A stretch of 32,343 bases of DNA from a virus, in the IMG/VR virus record IMGVR_UViG_3300027759_003078, positions 1 to 32,343 of that record; one strand, written 5' to 3'. The translations under genes were made by a program, and so were the position numbers. Shown here in pieces: positions 4,498 to 12,128 of this stretch (position 1 is the stretch's first letter; every line of letters begins with the position of its first letter). Under the pieces are notes generated by a model. That model saw only the letters and a list, made by a program, of their open reading frames with translations. It searched no databases and was not told the DNA's origin.

Positions 4498-4674
4498 ATG
4501 ATTCAATTTGACTTTGATCTGCTTCCAGATCCTGACCGCCACCGTAAGATTAGCTTTGTAAAAAGTGGTCTACGTATTCTAGCTGGCATTGCTCTAATTT
4601 TCGGTAGTCTCATTACTACTGGTATCCTCTTAATCATTGCTGAAATTCTCGGCATTGCGGAGGAGCTTGTTTAA
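4498..4674 (+). CDS. Small single-pass membrane protein
   Basis: A 58-residue protein. An acidic N-terminus (IQFDFDLLPDPDRHRK) is followed by a hydrophobic segment of ~28 residues beginning LAGIALIFGSLI and a short acidic end (EELV). It therefore looks like an inner membrane microprotein. AGGAG lies before the ATG and a promoter lies 37 bases upstream. Its TAA overlaps the ATG of queE by one base, so it is the first gene of the island. Function unknown. Confidence 0.7.
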   Translation: MIQFDFDLLPDPDRHRKISFVKSGLRILAGIALIFGSLITTGILLIIAEILGIAEELV

Positions 4675-5531
4675 TGGCTAAACTTAAAGTAGCAGAACTA
4701 TTCTACTCTATTCAAGGTGAAGGCCGCTATATGGGAGTACCTTCTGTATTCCTTCGTACCTTTGGTTGTAACTTTACCTGCAGTGGCTTTGGTATGCCTA
4801 AGGGTGAGCAAAGTAAAGAGGTTGAATATGTGGCTGCAGAGGTTGGTAAGTTTCTTTCATATAAAGAATTACCGCTTGTTAGTACAGGTTGTGATTCATA
4901 CGCTAGTTGGGATCCTCGTTTTAAGCATCTATCTCCCGTTCTTGATACTGACTCGGTTGCCGAAGCTGTTGTTGACTCTCTACCGTACAAAGAATGGAAA
5001 GAAGAACATCTTGTAATTACCGGTGGTGAACCTTTACTAGGTTGGCAAAGAGCGTACCCAGACTTGCTTGAACATCCAAAGATGAGAGCATTAAAAGAGA
5101 TTACCTTTGAGACCAACGGCACTCAAGAACTTAGCGAAGCGTTTAAAGATTATCTTGATAGATGGGGATGGGGAGTACCTGGTAACTTCGATCGTCAGAT
5201 AACATTCTCTGTATCTCCTAAGCTATCCGTATCAGGTGAGAAGTGGGATGATGCTATTAAACCAGAAATTGTTGCAGACTACGGTAACGTGGGTTATGTG
5301 TATTTAAAGTTTGTAGTTGCATCTCAGGAAGATGCTGATGAAGCAGAGAAAGCGGTGGAGATGTATCGAGCATCTGGCTTCATGGGACCGGTATACTTAA
5401 TGCCTGTTGGTGGTGTTGAGTCGGTATATCATATGAACAATCGGGCTGTGGCAGAACTTGCCATGAAGAAGGGGTATCGTTACAGCGATCGTCTTCAAGT
5501 GCCTTTATTTAAAAACGAATGGGGAACCTAA
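4674..5531 (+). CDS. queE: 7-carboxy-7-deazaguanine synthase QueE (radical SAM)
   Basis: A 285-residue radical SAM enzyme converting 6-carboxytetrahydropterin to 7-carboxy-7-deazaguanine. The start matches the family (VAELFYSIQGEGRYMGVPSVFLR), as does VITGGEPLLGWQ near residue 115. The cluster cysteines are atypical: C32-x3-C36 is followed by a long insertion before C73 in TGCDSYASWD, instead of the compact CxxxCxxC. Phage QueE proteins with this long spacing are known. Later motifs (FETNGTQ, SVSPKLSVSGE) and a C-terminal DRLQVPLF segment fit QueE. It is the first enzyme of the island and is coupled to the small membrane gene before it. Confidence 0.93.
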   Translation: MAKLKVAELFYSIQGEGRYMGVPSVFLRTFGCNFTCSGFGMPKGEQSKEVEYVAAEVGKFLSYKELPLVSTGCDSYASWDPRFKHLSPVLDTDSVAEAVVDSLPYKEWKEEHLVITGGEPLLGWQRAYPDLLEHPKMRALKEITFETNGTQELSEAFKDYLDRWGWGVPGNFDRQITFSVSPKLSVSGEKWDDAIKPEIVADYGNVGYVYLKFVVASQEDADEAEKAVEMYRASGFMGPVYLMPVGGVESVYHMNNRAVAELAMKKGYRYSDRLQVPLFKNEWGT

Positions 5532-5532
5532 A

Positions 5533-6210
5533 ATGTCATTACAAATTGGAAAAACGGATGCCGAGCTCGGCTATAAAGTAGAAGAGTATCTTATCTCTAA
5601 AGGTGTTCATACACCTATTGTATTAGATAGACTCGGAGTTAAAGACGAGCGTAAGATTGCAAAGATTGAAAAGAACTTTGCTGTCATTATGGAGACGTTG
5701 GGTCTTGACTTGACCGATGACTCGTTGATGGATACTCCTAAGCGTGTTGCTAAGATGTTTGTACGAGAGATCTTCTGGGGCTTAAAACCTGAAAACTTTC
5801 CTAAGTGTACCGTTATCGATAATAAGATGGGGTACGACGAGATGGTGGTTGAGAAAGATATTACTATGATGTCTAACTGCGAGCATCACTTTGTTACTAT
5901 CGATGGTAAAGCTCACATTGGTTATATTCCTAAAGGTAAGGTGCTTGGTCTATCTAAGTTGAATCGTATTGTAGAATACTTCTCACGTCGCCCTCAGGTT
6001 CAGGAACGTATAGCCGAGCAGGTATATCATGCATTGGTCTTTATTCTTGGTACTGAAGATGTTGCCGTTGTGATCGAAGGTACACATTACTGCGTTAAGT
6101 CACGAGGTGTTGAAGATCATTCCTCTTCTACCCTTACAGCCAAGCTTGGTGGTTGCTTTAAGAGTGAGCCCGATTGCCGAGCTGAATTTATGTCTTTAAT
6201 TAAGAGGTAA
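5533..6210 (+). CDS. folE: GTP cyclohydrolase I (FolE)
   Basis: A 225-residue enzyme converting GTP to 7,8-dihydroneopterin triphosphate, the first step to preQ0 (also to folate). Zinc ligands are visible: C116 in the SNCEHHF motif with H119, and C187 in THYCVKSRGVEDHSSS. The GYIPKGKVLGLSKLNRIVEYF block is canonical for type I. The gene starts two bases after the queE stop. Here it most likely feeds the QueD-QueE-QueC-QueF branch, though it could also support the formyl-folate used by the formyltransferase downstream. Confidence 0.96.
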   Translation: MSLQIGKTDAELGYKVEEYLISKGVHTPIVLDRLGVKDERKIAKIEKNFAVIMETLGLDLTDDSLMDTPKRVAKMFVREIFWGLKPENFPKCTVIDNKMGYDEMVVEKDITMMSNCEHHFVTIDGKAHIGYIPKGKVLGLSKLNRIVEYFSRRPQVQERIAEQVYHALVFILGTEDVAVVIEGTHYCVKSRGVEDHSSSTLTAKLGGCFKSEPDCRAEFMSLIKR

Positions 6211-6213
6211 TTT

Positions 6214-6648
6214 ATGACATGGTATGCAAACTCTGAAGGTCGCTATGGTGCTAAGGGCGCCAAGGGTGACCGCGGGGAAGCTATAGTAGAAGAATACTGT
6301 AACGATAATGATATTTTTTTTGAAGATAAGAATGATATTAACAGTCAAGTAAAGCTTAAAATAGATTGCATCATTGACGGGGTTTCTGTTGATGTAAAAT
6401 CTAACTACTATCAAGGCTTCCTTTGTGTAGAGTTGTATACCGTAAAGAATGGAGCTGGATGGTTATACACAACTACTGCCGATCAGATTTACGGGGTAGA
6501 TGTGGATACTAAATCCATCTTCCGTTATAATGTACAGGACATGGTATCATATGTTAGTGAGAATAAAGCCAGAGCTAAGAAAACTAAGTTCGGTGATATT
6601 GTAATGTGGGTACCAGTTAAGTCAAAAATTATTGAGAAATTACAATGA
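6214..6648 (+). CDS. PD-(D/E)XK nuclease-fold-like protein
   Basis: A 144-residue protein. The N-terminal KGDRGEAIVEEYC helix supplies E22; then KIDCIIDGVSVDVKS gives D51 and the D60-V-K62 pair. This E...D...DxK arrangement is the core of the PD-(D/E)XK nuclease fold seen in Holliday junction resolvases and restriction-type nucleases. No DNA recognition domain is apparent. It begins three bases after folE with a good AGAGG site, and its stop overlaps the DpdA-like gene (ATGA). Its place inside a DNA modification island is suggestive, but activity is unproven. Confidence 0.55.
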   Translation: MTWYANSEGRYGAKGAKGDRGEAIVEEYCNDNDIFFEDKNDINSQVKLKIDCIIDGVSVDVKSNYYQGFLCVELYTVKNGAGWLYTTTADQIYGVDVDTKSIFRYNVQDMVSYVSENKARAKKTKFGDIVMWVPVKSKIIEKLQ

Positions 6649-7445
6649 AAATTAGCCATGAATCCCCGCTTTGTCTTCTTGATCGGTCTCGTGATTATAA
6701 CGATTACGATTACGCTCTTGTCCACTTGTTCGAGACCGAACCAACTTACCTACAATTCTTTAAAGATTCTCTAGCACAGGGTAGAACTGTTCTACTAGAT
6801 AATTCAATCTTTGAACTAGGTACCGCTTTTGACTCCGATAAGTTTGCCTACTGGATTAAAGAACTTAAACCAACAGAATATATTATTCCTGATGTTCTAG
6901 AAGATGCATTAGGTACAATGGATAATGCTTTAGATTGGAAAGAAAAGTATTCTGATCTACCAGGTAAGACTATTGGTGTGGTTCAGGGTAAGAGCTATGA
7001 AGAAATTGTTCAATGCTATGACTATCTTGATAATGTAATTGGGGTAGATAAGATTGCTATTTCTTTTGACTATTCGTACTACCTCGAAGTCTGCCCTCAC
7101 CCTAATAAATGGATGGGTTACGCATTAGGTAGAGTACAAACTTTAACGAGATTATTAAATGACGGTGTTATCAATACTAAAAAACCACATCACCTCCTTG
7201 GGTGCGCGCTTCCGATTGAGTTCCTATTCTATCGGAAAGAGTTCAAATGGTTGGAGTCACTGGATACTTCCAACCCTATTGTTCATGCTCTGTTGGGCTT
7301 TGGCTACGAGCCTGGTGGTCTGGATAGTAAAAAATCCATTAAACTCATTGAACTACTTAATACTCCTGAACCCTCGGTAGCTACTATGTATACTATTAAA
7401 CATAATATTAAGTATTTTAAATCATATGTGCATGGTTACAGATAA
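6645..7445 (+). CDS. dpdA: DpdA/TGT-like deazaguanine transglycosylase (DNA guanine exchange)
   Basis: A 266-residue TIM-barrel-type protein resembling tRNA-guanine transglycosylases and the phage DpdA family, which swap guanine in DNA for a 7-deazaguanine base. Signs are the strand-end acidic motif LLDNSIFELG (D52, possible general base), IIPDVLED (D83), GVVQGKSYEE (111-120), HHLLGCALP (182-190) and SLDTSNP (206-212) with D207 placed like the TGT nucleophile. It is shorter than bacterial TGT (~375 aa) and lacks an obvious zinc-binding C-terminus. It sits among queE, folE, queF, queC and queD and is coupled to the formyltransferase. The exact DpdA subfamily cannot be given by eye. Confidence 0.75.
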   Translation: MKISHESPLCLLDRSRDYNDYDYALVHLFETEPTYLQFFKDSLAQGRTVLLDNSIFELGTAFDSDKFAYWIKELKPTEYIIPDVLEDALGTMDNALDWKEKYSDLPGKTIGVVQGKSYEEIVQCYDYLDNVIGVDKIAISFDYSYYLEVCPHPNKWMGYALGRVQTLTRLLNDGVINTKKPHHLLGCALPIEFLFYRKEFKWLESLDTSNPIVHALLGFGYEPGGLDSKKSIKLIELLNTPEPSVATMYTIKHNIKYFKSYVHGYR

Positions 7446-7987
7446 TGAATTGGATTACGTTTTTTAGTCAAACTGGTTCGGAGATTGTTGAGTTATCTAA
7501 GTCTATTGGACGTAAACCAGACCTACTGGTAACTAATAATTTTGAAGATAAAATTAAATTTCACCCAGGCATACGTGACTTGGGTGTTACTATTATGTCT
7601 GCCAAGCATGATATGTTAATGAACTACTTTAGAAATCAGGCGGTTTATAATGTTCCTCAGACCCTTATTAGTCTTCATGGTTACCTTCGCATTCTACCAG
7701 CTGATATATGTGAGAAATACGAAATATATAACGGGCATCCTGGAGCAATTGATCTCTACCCTGAGTTAAAGGGTAAAGACCCTCAAGAAAAAGTATGGCA
7801 AGATAACGACAAGTATAATATAATAGGCAGTGTTGTTCATAAATGCACATCAGAATTAGACGATGGTGATGTATTAAAATCTGTTTATGTACGTAATAGA
7901 AACTATACTAGAGAAGATCTTTATGCCTCTCTTAAGATGACTTCTTTATCGGCATGGAATTTCTTCTTGAGAGAAAAGGGATTATGA
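7445..7987 (+). CDS. Formyltransferase-fold enzyme, candidate DpdN (preQ1-DNA formyltransferase)
   Basis: A 180-residue protein of the formyltetrahydrofolate-dependent formyltransferase fold (PurN/Fmt type). It has a strand-turn LHGYLRILP (78-85), the YNGHPG signature giving N96 and H98, and VVHKCTSELDDG with H132 and D139, which match the Asn-His-Asp catalytic set. Literature on phage deazaguanines proposes a preQ1 formyltransferase, DpdN. This gene overlaps the DpdA-like gene (TAATG) and lies next to queF, so that role fits well. A purine-biosynthetic PurN is the alternative; the sequence is shorter than PurN (~212 aa) and divergent. Confidence 0.75.
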   Translation: MNWITFFSQTGSEIVELSKSIGRKPDLLVTNNFEDKIKFHPGIRDLGVTIMSAKHDMLMNYFRNQAVYNVPQTLISLHGYLRILPADICEKYEIYNGHPGAIDLYPELKGKDPQEKVWQDNDKYNIIGSVVHKCTSELDDGDVLKSVYVRNRNYTREDLYASLKMTSLSAWNFFLREKGL

Positions 7988-8517
7988 GAATTGGTATAAC
8001 GGGTGCGCAGTCGGTAGGTAAGACTACTCTACTAAATGCATTGCGATCTGAAAAACTATTTAAAGACTATGTTATATGCGATGAAGTAACTCGTCGTGTC
8101 AAGGGTTATGGTCTACCTATCAACGAAGACGGTACTGATAATACTCAACGTCTGATCATGAATGAGCATATTGTTAATGTGTTTATGAATGGTAATATGC
8201 TGACAGATCGTACAGCATTAGATGGTCTGGTATACAGTACATATCTTTATAAAAATAATAAGATTACAAATAATACTTTAAAATATGCAAAAGATGTATT
8301 TAATAAAGTATGGAATTCCTACGACTATGTGTTCTATATTGAGCCTGAGTTTGAAATTGTAGACGATGGGGTGCGTAGTGTTGATAAGCAGTTTAGAAAT
8401 GAAATTGCTGATCTGTTTGAAACTACTATTGAAAAAGAAAAGTTGACCTTGCGTAGAGTTAAAGGCTCAGTACGCGATAGAGTTAATACGATTATAGATT
8501 ATTTAGAAGGAAGATAA
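7984..8517 (+). CDS. P-loop kinase/ATPase of the NadR/AAA_28 type
   Basis: A 177-residue protein with a Walker A at its N-terminus (GITGAQSVGKTT, residues 4-15), a CDEVTRRV segment like the DE-x-x-R of deoxynucleoside or nicotinamide riboside kinases, and a LTDRTALDGLVYS segment. The start at 7984 is chosen because it overlaps the preceding stop as ATGA and puts the P-loop right at the N-terminus; AGAAAAGGG precedes it. Its TAA overlaps queF. The substrate is unknown: NMN/NR-like, a nucleoside, or a modification intermediate. Confidence 0.65.
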   Translation: MRIGITGAQSVGKTTLLNALRSEKLFKDYVICDEVTRRVKGYGLPINEDGTDNTQRLIMNEHIVNVFMNGNMLTDRTALDGLVYSTYLYKNNKITNNTLKYAKDVFNKVWNSYDYVFYIEPEFEIVDDGVRSVDKQFRNEIADLFETTIEKEKLTLRRVKGSVRDRVNTIIDYLEGR

Positions 8518-9440
8518 TGAATAACCAAGAAGAATTGAATAAACTAGTTGGCGTTCACCTAGGTAAAGCTGGTGATGGTACTGCTGTTAAGCCGTATGTA
8601 ACTCCTGATACTGTAGACCCTACTCTACTGGTATCTGTTCCGAGAGTCTTAAATAGAACAGCATATGAGATTGATGAGTCAAATTTACCATTCGTAGGAA
8701 TGGATGCATGGAATGCTTATGAATTCTCTACCTTACTTGTAAACGGGTTTCCTGTATCAGGTTGGCTAAAGTTTACTTACCCTTCTGATTCTCCTAATAT
8801 TGTAGAGTCTAAGTCGGTTAAGTTATATTTGAATTCTTATAATATGGCTAAACTAGTTACTACTACCGATGATATGTGGCAGGTAGAAGATAAGATTGCA
8901 AGTGATCTTTCTGAAGCAGTAGGAGCTGAGGTAGAAGTGTTTGTTCGTTGGGGTGATGTTGATACCGTCAGGCCTATTATTGGTGATTTTACTTCATTAG
9001 AGCATTATTGTAATATTGGTAAGATGACGTTTGATGAGTATAATGAAAGCCCTAATACCTTACAAGTAGTACCCAGTATCGGTCGATATGAAAAGTGGCG
9101 ATCATACTCGCTAAGATCTAATTGCCGGGTAACTAATCAGCCCGATTGGGGTGATGTGTATGTGCATATCAAAGGTGAGAGGGCTGTTACCCCAGAGTCA
9201 TTACTTAAGTATATTGTTTCGATGCGTAAAGAGAACCACTTTCATGAAGAGATTGCTGAATGTATCTATAAGCGTCTCTTTGACTTGCTTCAGCCTGAAG
9301 AGCTATTTGTAGCGTGCTTGTATACGCGTCGAGGTGGTATTGATATTAACCCCGTACGTGCAAGTGATAACAGGGTACTCTATAAGTACGCAGCAATTGC
9401 CGATGTAACTAACTTCTGTACAAAGACTGCAAGACAATGA
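8517..9440 (+). CDS. queF: NADPH-dependent preQ0 reductase QueF (type II)
   Basis: A 307-residue enzyme, length typical of the long QueF class (E. coli 282 aa). It reduces the nitrile of preQ0 to the aminomethyl group of preQ1. The N-terminal half has the QueF signature SPNIVESKSVKLYLNS (92-107). The C-terminal half has SNCRVTNQPDWGDV with the thioimide cysteine C203 and the acid D210, at the same +7 spacing as E. coli C190/D197, followed by KENHFHEE and a YTRRGGIDINP end. Having this gene means the phage can go past preQ0 to preQ1. It overlaps its neighbours on both sides. Confidence 0.95.
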   Translation: MNNQEELNKLVGVHLGKAGDGTAVKPYVTPDTVDPTLLVSVPRVLNRTAYEIDESNLPFVGMDAWNAYEFSTLLVNGFPVSGWLKFTYPSDSPNIVESKSVKLYLNSYNMAKLVTTTDDMWQVEDKIASDLSEAVGAEVEVFVRWGDVDTVRPIIGDFTSLEHYCNIGKMTFDEYNESPNTLQVVPSIGRYEKWRSYSLRSNCRVTNQPDWGDVYVHIKGERAVTPESLLKYIVSMRKENHFHEEIAECIYKRLFDLLQPEELFVACLYTRRGGIDINPVRASDNRVLYKYAAIADVTNFCTKTARQ

Positions 9441-9685
9441 CCATTAAATTAAATAAAGGTGTTAGGTTTGATTTAAGCGTTGAAGATAACAACGTAAATG
9501 AAATATGTCTAGAGTATATGAAAAGAGCCGACCATGGGTTTAAGAAGTACGGCGTTACTACTGAACGTAGAGATCTAGATTTAATGGATTGGATTCAGCA
9601 TTTAAAAGAAGAGCTGATGGATGCTACGGTTTATATCCATCGTATTCAAAAAGAATTGAAAGAGAAACAAGATGACCTCAAGTGA
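9437..9685 (+). CDS. MazG/DUF550-like small nucleotide pyrophosphohydrolase
   Basis: An 82-residue helical protein with a FKKYGVTTERRDLDLMDWIQHLKEELMDA core, cut here into FKKYG, DLDLMDWIQH and KEELMDA. The last two give the E/D pairs expected of an all-alpha NTP pyrophosphatase fold. It may hydrolyse a non-canonical or host nucleotide in support of the pathway. Its ATG overlaps the queF stop (ATGA) and its end overlaps queC by 14 bases. Function is inferred only from pattern. Confidence 0.55.
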   Translation: MTIKLNKGVRFDLSVEDNNVNEICLEYMKRADHGFKKYGVTTERRDLDLMDWIQHLKEELMDATVYIHRIQKELKEKQDDLK

Positions 9686-10433
9686 AGCGCTAGCATTATT
9701 GCCCGATGTCAAGGGCTGTGTAATTATCCTATCCGGTGGTATGGATAGTACCATTGCTATGAGACTGGCTGTAGAAAAATATGGAAAGGAAAATGTATCT
9801 GCATTAACTTTTTATTACGGTCAGAAGCAGAGACGTGAAATTGATATGGCTAGAATGTCTACTAACCTACTGGGCGTTAAGCATAAAGTAGTAGATGCAT
9901 CGTTCCTTGGTGATATTAGTAAAGGTTTTTCTGCTAATGTCGATACGGATATGGCTATGCCAACGATTAAAGACGTGTTAGGTGATCCTCGTCCTAAGAC
10001 TTACGTACCTAATCGTAATATGATCTTGATGTCTATTGCCGCAGCTTTTGCAGAGACACAAAACGTTGATACTGTTGTATGTGGGTTACAGGTGCATGAC
10101 GAGTATGGGTATCATGATACTACTCAACGATGGGTAGATAAAGTAAATGACTTGCTGTCTGAAAATCGTATCATTAAGATTAAACTAACTGCTCCCTTCA
10201 GTCAACTATCTAAGTATGATGAGTTACAGATCTTGCAAGAGCTAGATGGTAACCTAGCCCTTACATCATTTACTATGACTTGTTATAACCCTAATGATCA
10301 ACACCAATCATGCGGTGAGTGTCCTAGTTGCTCTGAACGTATTGCCAATTTTGCTAAGATAGGTTATAATGATCCTGTTGAGTATTCAAAAGTAATTCCC
10401 TGGCAAGACCTAATTGAAAGAATGAAGGTTTAA
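9672..10433 (+). CDS. queC: 7-cyano-7-deazaguanine (preQ0) synthase QueC
   Basis: A 253-residue ATP-dependent enzyme that turns 7-carboxy-7-deazaguanine and ammonia into preQ0. The PP-loop SGGMDST is at 21-27; YVPNRNMILMSIA (111-123) is the QueC signature; and the C-terminal zinc site is C204, C214, C217 and C220 (in CGECPSCSER). The start lies within the end of the MazG-like gene. The next gene, two bases on, is a glutamine amidotransferase, which could supply ammonia or act on the product. Confidence 0.95.
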   Translation: MTSSEALALLPDVKGCVIILSGGMDSTIAMRLAVEKYGKENVSALTFYYGQKQRREIDMARMSTNLLGVKHKVVDASFLGDISKGFSANVDTDMAMPTIKDVLGDPRPKTYVPNRNMILMSIAAAFAETQNVDTVVCGLQVHDEYGYHDTTQRWVDKVNDLLSENRIIKIKLTAPFSQLSKYDELQILQELDGNLALTSFTMTCYNPNDQHQSCGECPSCSERIANFAKIGYNDPVEYSKVIPWQDLIERMKV

Positions 10434-10434
10434 A

Positions 10435-11052
10435 ATGTGTGCAATAACTGGATCTTTGTATAAAGAAAAACTTAAAGAGTTATATACTCTTAATGCTTAT
10501 AGAGGTGAATTAAACTATTCCTTAGCTACCTTTACACCTCATAAGAGTAAGGTAGAGTTTCAAACTTTATTTCAAGATTCCGGTAAAATGCCCGAAACTT
10601 TAATTGACGGTATACCTTGTAAGGAAGGTGATTTTATAATTGCTCATTCCCAAGCACCTACTACAAATTCGAATAATATACATCCAGCAGTGTATGGTGA
10701 AGCCTTGTTATGGCATAACGGTATTATTAAGCAAAATAAACTTAGTCCTAATACTTGGGATACTGCTTGGTTGCTTGAACAAATTACTGACTACGGCTGG
10801 TCATCGTTATCCAGGGTAGATGGAACGTTCGCCTGTATTATGTACATGGGTGGAAATCTTTATGTATTTAGAAATGAAATTTCACCTTTGTTTATAGATG
10901 ATCACTTTAATATATCTTCAACAAAGTTTCAAGGTAGTTCATCTCTTACTCCAAATCAAGTCTTTAAATTAAATTTTGAAACTAAGTATCTTGATGCCGT
11001 AGCTTATTTTGAGACGAAAGAAAATCCATATTATATTCCGGAGAATGCATGA
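10435..11052 (+). CDS. Class II glutamine amidotransferase (Ntn hydrolase) beside QueC
   Basis: A 205-residue stand-alone glutaminase domain. Cys2 follows the initiator Met (MCAITGSLY), giving an N-terminal nucleophile. YRGEL (R23), the AHSQAP segment (H71), HPA at 83-85, LWHNGII (HNG 94-96) and VDGTFACIMY follow the order of type II GATase domains. No synthetase domain follows. In phage 9g a related amidotransferase is fused to QueC and is linked to deoxyarchaeosine formation; here the two are adjacent, separate genes. It may release ammonia for QueC or amidate preQ0 to an archaeosine-like base. Confidence 0.75.
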   Translation: MCAITGSLYKEKLKELYTLNAYRGELNYSLATFTPHKSKVEFQTLFQDSGKMPETLIDGIPCKEGDFIIAHSQAPTTNSNNIHPAVYGEALLWHNGIIKQNKLSPNTWDTAWLLEQITDYGWSSLSRVDGTFACIMYMGGNLYVFRNEISPLFIDDHFNISSTKFQGSSSLTPNQVFKLNFETKYLDAVAYFETKENPYYIPENA

Positions 11053-11579
11053 CAGTTACATATAAATTATATTCAGAACCCTTTAGTATGAAGCACGTAA
11101 TGGGTGAAAGTAGTAGGACTAAGCTAACCAATGTTGTTGATGAAGATATTCAACCTAATGCTGTAGATCTACGTTTAGGTAAGGTATTTCGTATTAATAA
11201 TGAGGTGTTTGAGGTAAGCAATGATCACAAAAAACATAGAGGCTCTACTGAACTCGTACCAGACTCAGAAGGCTATTTTACGCTATACCCGGGGAGTTAT
11301 GAGATCGTTATGGAAAACGTCATCCATGTGGGTGAAGGTGAAGCTGGTTGGGTCATTACTCGTAGCACTCTCAACCGCAATGGTTGTTTTATTACTTCAG
11401 GTCTTTATGATTCTGGCTATCATGGTGTCATGGCCGGGGTACTACATGTTACGACTGGCCCGGCTCGCATTAAGCAAGGTACGAGGGTAGGGCAGTACTT
11501 GTCTTTTGATGCAGAAGCGCTTAAAACGTACGATGGCAGTTATGGCATTGGTAAAGAGCACGATAAGAAGTATACATAA
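11049..11579 (+). CDS. dUTPase/dCTP-deaminase superfamily protein
   Basis: A 176-residue protein with QPNAVDLRLG (35-44), RSTLNRNGC (105-113, motif 2-like), SGLYDSGYHGVM (117-128, with D121 in the dUTPase motif 3 position) and GTRVGQYLSF (144-153). This supports the trimeric dUTPase/Dcd fold. The Glu that follows in dCTP deaminases (V-L-E-F) is replaced by V-L-H-V, so dUTPase-like pyrophosphatase activity is more likely than deamination. It overlaps the amidotransferase stop (ATGA). Likely role: keeping uracil out of DNA and supplying dUMP. Confidence 0.75.
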   Translation: MTVTYKLYSEPFSMKHVMGESSRTKLTNVVDEDIQPNAVDLRLGKVFRINNEVFEVSNDHKKHRGSTELVPDSEGYFTLYPGSYEIVMENVIHVGEGEAGWVITRSTLNRNGCFITSGLYDSGYHGVMAGVLHVTTGPARIKQGTRVGQYLSFDAEALKTYDGSYGIGKEHDKKYT

Positions 11580-11624
11580 TAAACAAGCGGTCTCCGGCGT
11601 CATCCCGCTCTATAAACTCTGCTG

Positions 11625-11644
11625 CCTATGCTAACTAACATAGG
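11625..11644 (+). promoter_or_regulatory. Hairpin over the queD ribosome binding site
   Basis: CCTATG (11625-11630) and CATAGG (11639-11644) form a perfect 6-bp stem with an 8-base loop. The right arm includes the AGG of the AGGA site (11642-11645), six bases before the queD ATG. It could mask the site or simply end the upstream message. No T tract follows. Confidence 0.4.
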
Positions 11645-11651
11645 ATTAAAA

Positions 11652-12128
11652 ATGGCAAAAAAATATATTTCAACTAAAACGTATAAACAAATTGGACCGG
11701 TTGCATACCGTCAGTGGCGCGCTGATAGTCATTGTAACTTGGTCCATGGTTATGCTTTATCATTTCATTTTGAGTTTGAGTCTGATACCTTAGACGTCCG
11801 TAATTGGGTAATGGACTTCGGTGGTCTACGCCCATTAAAAGATAAACTAGAAGAATGGTTTGATCATACCTTGTTAGTTGCGCAAGATGATCCTAAGAGA
11901 GAGTACTTACTTGAACTTGGTCGTCAGGGTATTGCTAAGATTACAGAAGTAGAAAAGACTGGTTGTGAAGGTCTTGCAGACTTCTTGTACGAGTATATCA
12001 ATACTATCTTCTTACCAAGTTATGGCGAACAAGATCGTATTTGGTGCTGTAAGGTAGAGGTTCGTGAGACCGATAGCAATATGGCTATGCGCGTAGGCCA
12101 TCAAGAAGACAATGAGTATAATGACTGA
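11652..12128 (+). CDS. queD: 6-carboxy-5,6,7,8-tetrahydropterin synthase QueD
   Basis: A 158-residue member of the PTPS/QueD family converting dihydroneopterin triphosphate to 6-carboxytetrahydropterin. The active-site region reads RQWRADSHCNLVHGYALSF, with H27, C28 (catalytic Cys) and H32. The usual second histidine of the HGH zinc motif is Tyr34. WVMDFGGLRPLK and EWFDHTLLVAQDDP match the variant found in alphaproteobacteria. The start at 11652 is chosen for its AGGA at six bases; an upstream ATG at 11628 lies inside a hairpin. It closes the island. Confidence 0.88.
   Translation: MAKKYISTKTYKQIGPVAYRQWRADSHCNLVHGYALSFHFEFESDTLDVRNWVMDFGGLRPLKDKLEEWFDHTLLVAQDDPKREYLLELGRQGIAKITEVEKTGCEGLADFLYEYINTIFLPSYGEQDRIWCCKVEVRETDSNMAMRVGHQEDNEYND

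Follow-up and report, generated by a model that had tools for sequence, protein, structure and literature searches.

The window, an IMG/VR virus record of 32.3 kb, carries on its plus strand (7445-7987) a gene for a 180-aa protein of formyltransferase fold (hereafter FT), a relative of PurN confined to phages, which we predict, with a probability of about 80%, to be an N-formyltransferase acting on preQ1 or dPreQ1 and to belong to the DpdN kind that has been proposed. Its fold, the conservation of the catalytic residues, the loss of other PurN residues, the presence of a complete set of pathway genes and the linkage to DpdA and QueF make this the most likely function. The name DpdN is used here as a prediction drawn from sequence, modelled structure and gene context. 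The same role had previously been suggested, under the name DpdN, for a related gene of phages; DpdN was reportedly put forward as a dPreQ1 formyltransferase by Cui et al. 2023 (NAR 51:9214-9226; cited in PMC12783734), the name implying dPreQ1, and is said to be a predicted enzyme so far. New here are a switched substrate pocket and a genomic slot between DpdA and a kinase that holds FT, nothing or a GNAT-family protein.

In the proposed pathway, FolE, QueD, QueE and QueC would provide preQ0, which QueF would convert into preQ1, creating a primary amine, and a DpdA-type transglycosylase would swap guanine in DNA for the deazaguanine. FT would formylate the exocyclic primary amine of 7-aminomethyl-7-deazaguanine, with 10-formyl-tetrahydrofolate as donor, acting either on preQ1 prior to insertion or on dPreQ1 once it is part of DNA, and the end product would be 7-(formylamino)methyl-7-deazaguanine in phage DNA. 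Substrate, product and folate donor are given as we infer them; the minimal, single-domain size of FT, without a nucleic-acid-binding domain, leans slightly towards the free base.

The deazaguanine island and its putative formyltransferase gene

The window encodes several T4-like proteins (UvsY, UvsW, a late sigma factor and an SbcD-like protein), and megablast of 25 kb of it against GenBank phages produced no match. Upstream of uvsY, positions 357-1223 encode a phrog_1574 protein with a weak match to Anp1 glycosyltransferases. The deazaguanine island spans approximately 4674 to 12128, and its queE-like, folE, DpdA-like, FT, kinase, queF, queC and queD-like genes lie on the plus strand. It begins with a QueE-like radical SAM protein (4674-5531; phrog_2076, E=2e-56), FolE, the GTP cyclohydrolase I (5533-6210; PF01227, E=2.6e-60), an unknown ORF and a DpdA-like DNA guanine transglycosylase of 266 aa and TGT fold (6645-7445; phrog_19058, E=1.6e-53). 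FT, the candidate DpdN, follows, and after it come a P-loop kinase-like protein (AAA_28, thymidylate kinase/NadR-like; 7984-8517; PF13521, E=1.3e-16; phrog_2107, E=2.5e-28), the QueF nitrile reductase for the preQ0 to preQ1 step (8517-9440; PF14819, E=2.6e-31; TIGR03138, 232 bits for a cut-off of 293) and a small ORF. QueC, the preQ0 synthase (9672-10433; PF06508, E=1.1e-51), a glutamine-amidotransferase-like ORF, a dCTP-deaminase-like gene and a QueD-like PTPS (11628-12128; phrog_2389, E=4.1e-41) complete the island. The ORF adjoining queC (10435-11052, starting with MCAITGS; phrog_12378, weak GATase_6 match, E=0.017) is conserved across many related loci and resembles a free-standing class-II glutamine amidotransferase, an arrangement that recalls a split Gat-QueC.

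The initial annotation had described the FT gene as translationally coupled to the DpdA-like gene and near queF, and this was confirmed: the ORF is present exactly where it had been placed, its ATG overlaps the stop codon of the DpdA-like gene (TAATG, 7443-7447) and queF lies two genes downstream. The FT stop codon in turn overlaps the likely start of the kinase gene (ATGA, 7984-7987). The protein matches Pfam Formyl_trans_N (PF00551, E=3.9e-7, 30.4 bits, cut-off 26.1), and the gene is under strong purifying selection, with dN/dS of 0.08-0.14 against homologues of 84-95% identity. Besides, 368 relatives were found among the IMG/VR pattern matches, indicating that the ORF is not a chance occurrence. 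FT had also been described as shorter than PurN, which holds for the E. coli enzyme (180 versus 212 aa) but does not discriminate, as cyanophage PurN proteins of 174-191 aa are equally short, and we dropped length as a mark separating the two. Longer FT proteins of about 300 aa, with a C-terminal extension, are encoded in other loci (L190:2331-3239, L213:8919-9824, L224:2200-3126 and L227:10817-11743); the extension matches phrog_1485, of unknown function (E=5e-5 in L190).

Fold, phylogeny and active site compared with PurN

An AF2 model of FT, built from an alignment of 60 window and locus sequences, attained a mean pLDDT of 96.3. When it was compared with solved structures, as had been suggested for this gene, PurN proteins were the best matches (Z 18-20, rmsd 2.1-2.4, about 170 residues); deformylases and sugar and tRNA formyltransferases also have this fold. 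PurN (TIGR00639) was likewise the best NCBIfam model, with 25.1 bits for the window FT and 55.4 for its homologue in the Flavobacterium phage immuto, against a cut-off of 150.1. The phylogeny, however, did not place FT firmly inside PurN. A tree was computed for 88 sequences, comprising PurN, cyanophage PurN, PurU, Fmt, ArnA and others. In it, a 100/100 branch set the 34 FT-family members apart from everything else, and their stem measured 3.0 changes per site. Their clade joined near PurN and PurU with weak support (PurU nearest, 95/69), on a long branch whose bootstrap had not fully settled. Cyanophage PurN (phrog_9240), which resembles FT in being short, phage-encoded and PurN-like, was placed elsewhere in the tree, and the window FT reached only 28 bits against its profile.

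Considering the range of enzymes that share this fold and the position of PurU as nearest, if weakly supported, neighbour, FT might formylate some other island-linked substrate or hydrolyse 10-formyl-THF in the manner of PurU. We judge this very unlikely, since FT has neither the ACT domain of PurU nor a tRNA-binding or sugar-binding C-terminal domain, its catalytic set is intact and its linkage to DpdA and QueF is strict.

The active site shows what FT shares with PurN and what it has lost. The residues N96, H98 and D139, highlighted in the initial annotation as the Asn-His-Asp set of formyl-THF transferases, are indeed present and invariant in 60/60 diverse aligned family members; they align with Asn106, His108 and Asp144 of E. 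coli PurN, the last two being its catalytic residues (PMC3261824). The folate-side motif L-R-I (LRI/MRI) is also retained, as in PurN. On the contrary, Asn13 of PurN, located in the G-S-N phosphate loop, is replaced by Glu in 60/60 FT members, Glu173 by Ser in 55/60 and by Ala in 4/60 (Ser167 in the window), and Arg64 mostly by Leu, Ile or Val in the same 60 members, whereas the PurN comparison set kept Glu173 in 33/33 and Asn13 in 31/33 sequences. We take N13, R64 and E173 of E. coli PurN to be the GAR phosphate and ribose contacts seen in PurN complexes. A phosphate ligand would be ill served by a phosphate loop with an invariant acidic residue, and a Glu13 that reads the guanine edge of preQ1 would be suitable.

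These replacements weigh on the idea that FT is a phage GAR formyltransferase boosting host purine synthesis, as cyanophage purN does. The best-scoring NCBIfam model and the GenBank annotation of the immuto homologue as phosphoribosylglycinamide formyltransferase speak for it, but we consider it very unlikely: the scores fall far under the cut-off, the clade is separate and lies apart from cyanophage PurN, the phosphate-loop Asn and the ribose-contact Glu have given way to an invariant Glu and to Ser, and the FT gene is linked to DpdA and QueF, whereas neither purM nor any other pur gene was seen.

Transglycosylase, QueF and kinase partners across phages

The model of the DpdA-like protein (pLDDT 96.2) matched TGT (Foldseek E 4e-8; Z 17-18) and 7ui4, the DNA preQ0 insertase DpdA (E 7e-6; Z 17.3). 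The protein shares 54% identity with an immuto protein that carries the annotation DpdA and 43.5% with a protein of Campylobacter phage CP220, this type being common to Flavobacterium phage immuto and Campylobacter Firehammervirus. At the sequence level, the window protein had no significant match to Pfam DpdA (PF23859) or TGT (PF01702), the best scores among 44 members of the family were E=0.005 (TGT) and E=0.064 (DpdA), and PDB sequence profiles gave nothing usable. When the Campylobacter DpdA alone served as query, the scan retrieved only that protein, close relatives and two weak matches. As its identity is evident solely from the fold and from similarity to annotated phage proteins, and given the lack of a Pfam match to DpdA or TGT, we named it DpdA-like, on fold and context.

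The window QueF contains the motifs ESKSVKLY (reductase motif) and CRVTNQPDW, and the former pattern was found in 236 of the 241 QueF ORFs of the set. We take QueF proteins with ESKSVKLY to be of the NADPH-reductase type and not of the amidotransferase type, and therefore expect preQ1, which bears the primary amine, to be produced. The phage QueF homologues of Dp-1 and HVTV-1 have been shown to go with dPreQ1 (PMC6884629). The previous proposal of FT as a candidate DpdN is thus supported by its separate clade, by its neighbour of TGT/DpdA fold and by a QueF with the reductase motif.

A kinase of the AAA_28 type lies beside DpdA in 141 of 158 loci, including Campylobacter phages that have neither QueF nor FT (L083:10819-11361 is a further example). 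Formylation at the nucleotide level, on a route in which the deazaguanine would be handled as a deoxynucleotide, phosphorylated by the adjacent kinase and incorporated by a polymerase, would account for this partnership and for the recurrence of kinase or NTP-pyrophosphohydrolase-like neighbours in immuto and phiST, but it is highly improbable in view of the TGT fold of DpdA, of its family's invariant Asp residues, which fit base exchange in nucleic acid, and of a 13-locus sub-clade with DpdA, FT and QueF that has no kinase. In Cellulophaga phage phiST (L343:4573-6735), a distant DpdA homologue follows a P-loop ATPase and a MazG-like pyrophosphohydrolase, and nucleotide-metabolism genes recur beside this DpdA type. 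In a sub-clade (L045, L048, L057, L063, L069, L075 and L082) the kinase is absent between FT and queF, and a short reading frame (YECIDVIEDLC...YNRFQAFKYVWRAG type) encoding some 80-120 aa takes its position.

The closest known system is that of Flavobacterium phage vB_FspM_immuto (MW353175), whose protein immuto26A_67 shares 43% identity with the window FT over 97% of the latter. The order DpdA-FT-kinase-QueF is common to immuto and to more than 90 contigs, FT standing beside a DpdA-type transglycosylase as in the window, together with QueF and the preQ0 pathway, and with one small ORF between the DpdA and FT genes in immuto. GenBank lists immuto26A_67 as PurN, unlike our DpdN reading of the window FT, and we infer that it is the published DpdN. 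CP220 resembles the window in having the same DpdA type adjoining a kinase, but differs in that no QueF and no formyltransferase were found in its whole 177.5-kb record. Among GenBank phages, FT matches were restricted to Flavobacterium immuto isolates, and 84,980 bacterial and archaeal species genomes yielded a single match, on a phage-like contig.

Co-occurrence was assessed on 158 distinct DpdA proteins whose genes are followed by at least 2.6 kb of sequence. FT and QueF were both present in 105 loci, FT alone in 1, QueF alone in 39 and neither in 13. In the subset below 90% identity, the corresponding values were 74, 1, 25 and 11 (Fisher p=1.2e-5, a test that counts related phages), and the DpdA tree offered only about 4 independent contrasts, 3 for, 0 against and 1 neutral (sign test p=0.25), so that the explanation that FT merely follows phage ancestry is only partly excluded. 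The locus-based calls held up when 16 records were searched over their whole length: the 14 FT-less records tested hold no FT, and no convincing QueF appeared in those FT-less records classed as lacking it. In G053, a weak sub-threshold QueF match (E=8e-5, 19.7 bits) in a 222-aa frame more probably represents a related protein of the FolE type. The sole FT without QueF (L229/L268, DUVY01000197.1) is on a phage-like contig of a Clostridiales MAG, with DpdA and no kinase; no QueF was found in the contig (20 kb of 20.9 kb) or in the 1.7-Mb MAG, and salvage is a possible source of preQ1 for this locus. The FT-less, QueF-containing loci were also searched for another tailoring gene, which returned mostly structural genes and spurious ORFs.

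A possibly exchangeable slot next to DpdA

Most loci have FT between DpdA and the kinase, others have nothing there, and four contigs harbour in this slot a GNAT acetyltransferase-like ORF: L170:10798-11346 (L170/L233), L200:10801-11343 (L200/L231), L209:10801-11345 (L209/L232) and L234:617-1162. PF00583 was over the cut-off in the 3/3 GNAT proteins scanned, the gene is coupled on both sides through overlapping start and stop codons, and it never occurs together with FT in the 158 DpdA loci. The DpdA proteins of the four GNAT loci form one clade (99), pointing to a single origin. Replacement of FT by a GNAT protein is in keeping with acylation of one and the same amine by whichever enzyme occupies the slot, and as N-formylation and N-acetylation affect the same kind of group, the exchange supports the preQ1 amine as the target. 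The slot GNAT is a candidate N-acetyltransferase for preQ1 or dPreQ1. Tentatively, and at somewhat less than even odds, the slot could be an exchangeable tailoring position that chooses the acylation of the preQ1 amine, FT giving the N-formyl form, an empty slot dPreQ1 and GNAT N-acetyl-dPreQ1. We know of no report of N-acetyl-dPreQ1 as a DNA base.

The size of the family and its defined pocket switch (Glu13 for PurN Asn13, Ser167 for PurN Glu173) make the DpdN prediction directly testable, with the help of natural loci that contain or lack FT. FT would exemplify the recruitment of a PurN-like enzyme for the modification of nucleic acids. The exchange of FT for GNAT suggests that different phages attach different acyl groups to a single DNA base, a diversity to be expected where host restriction enzymes exert pressure.
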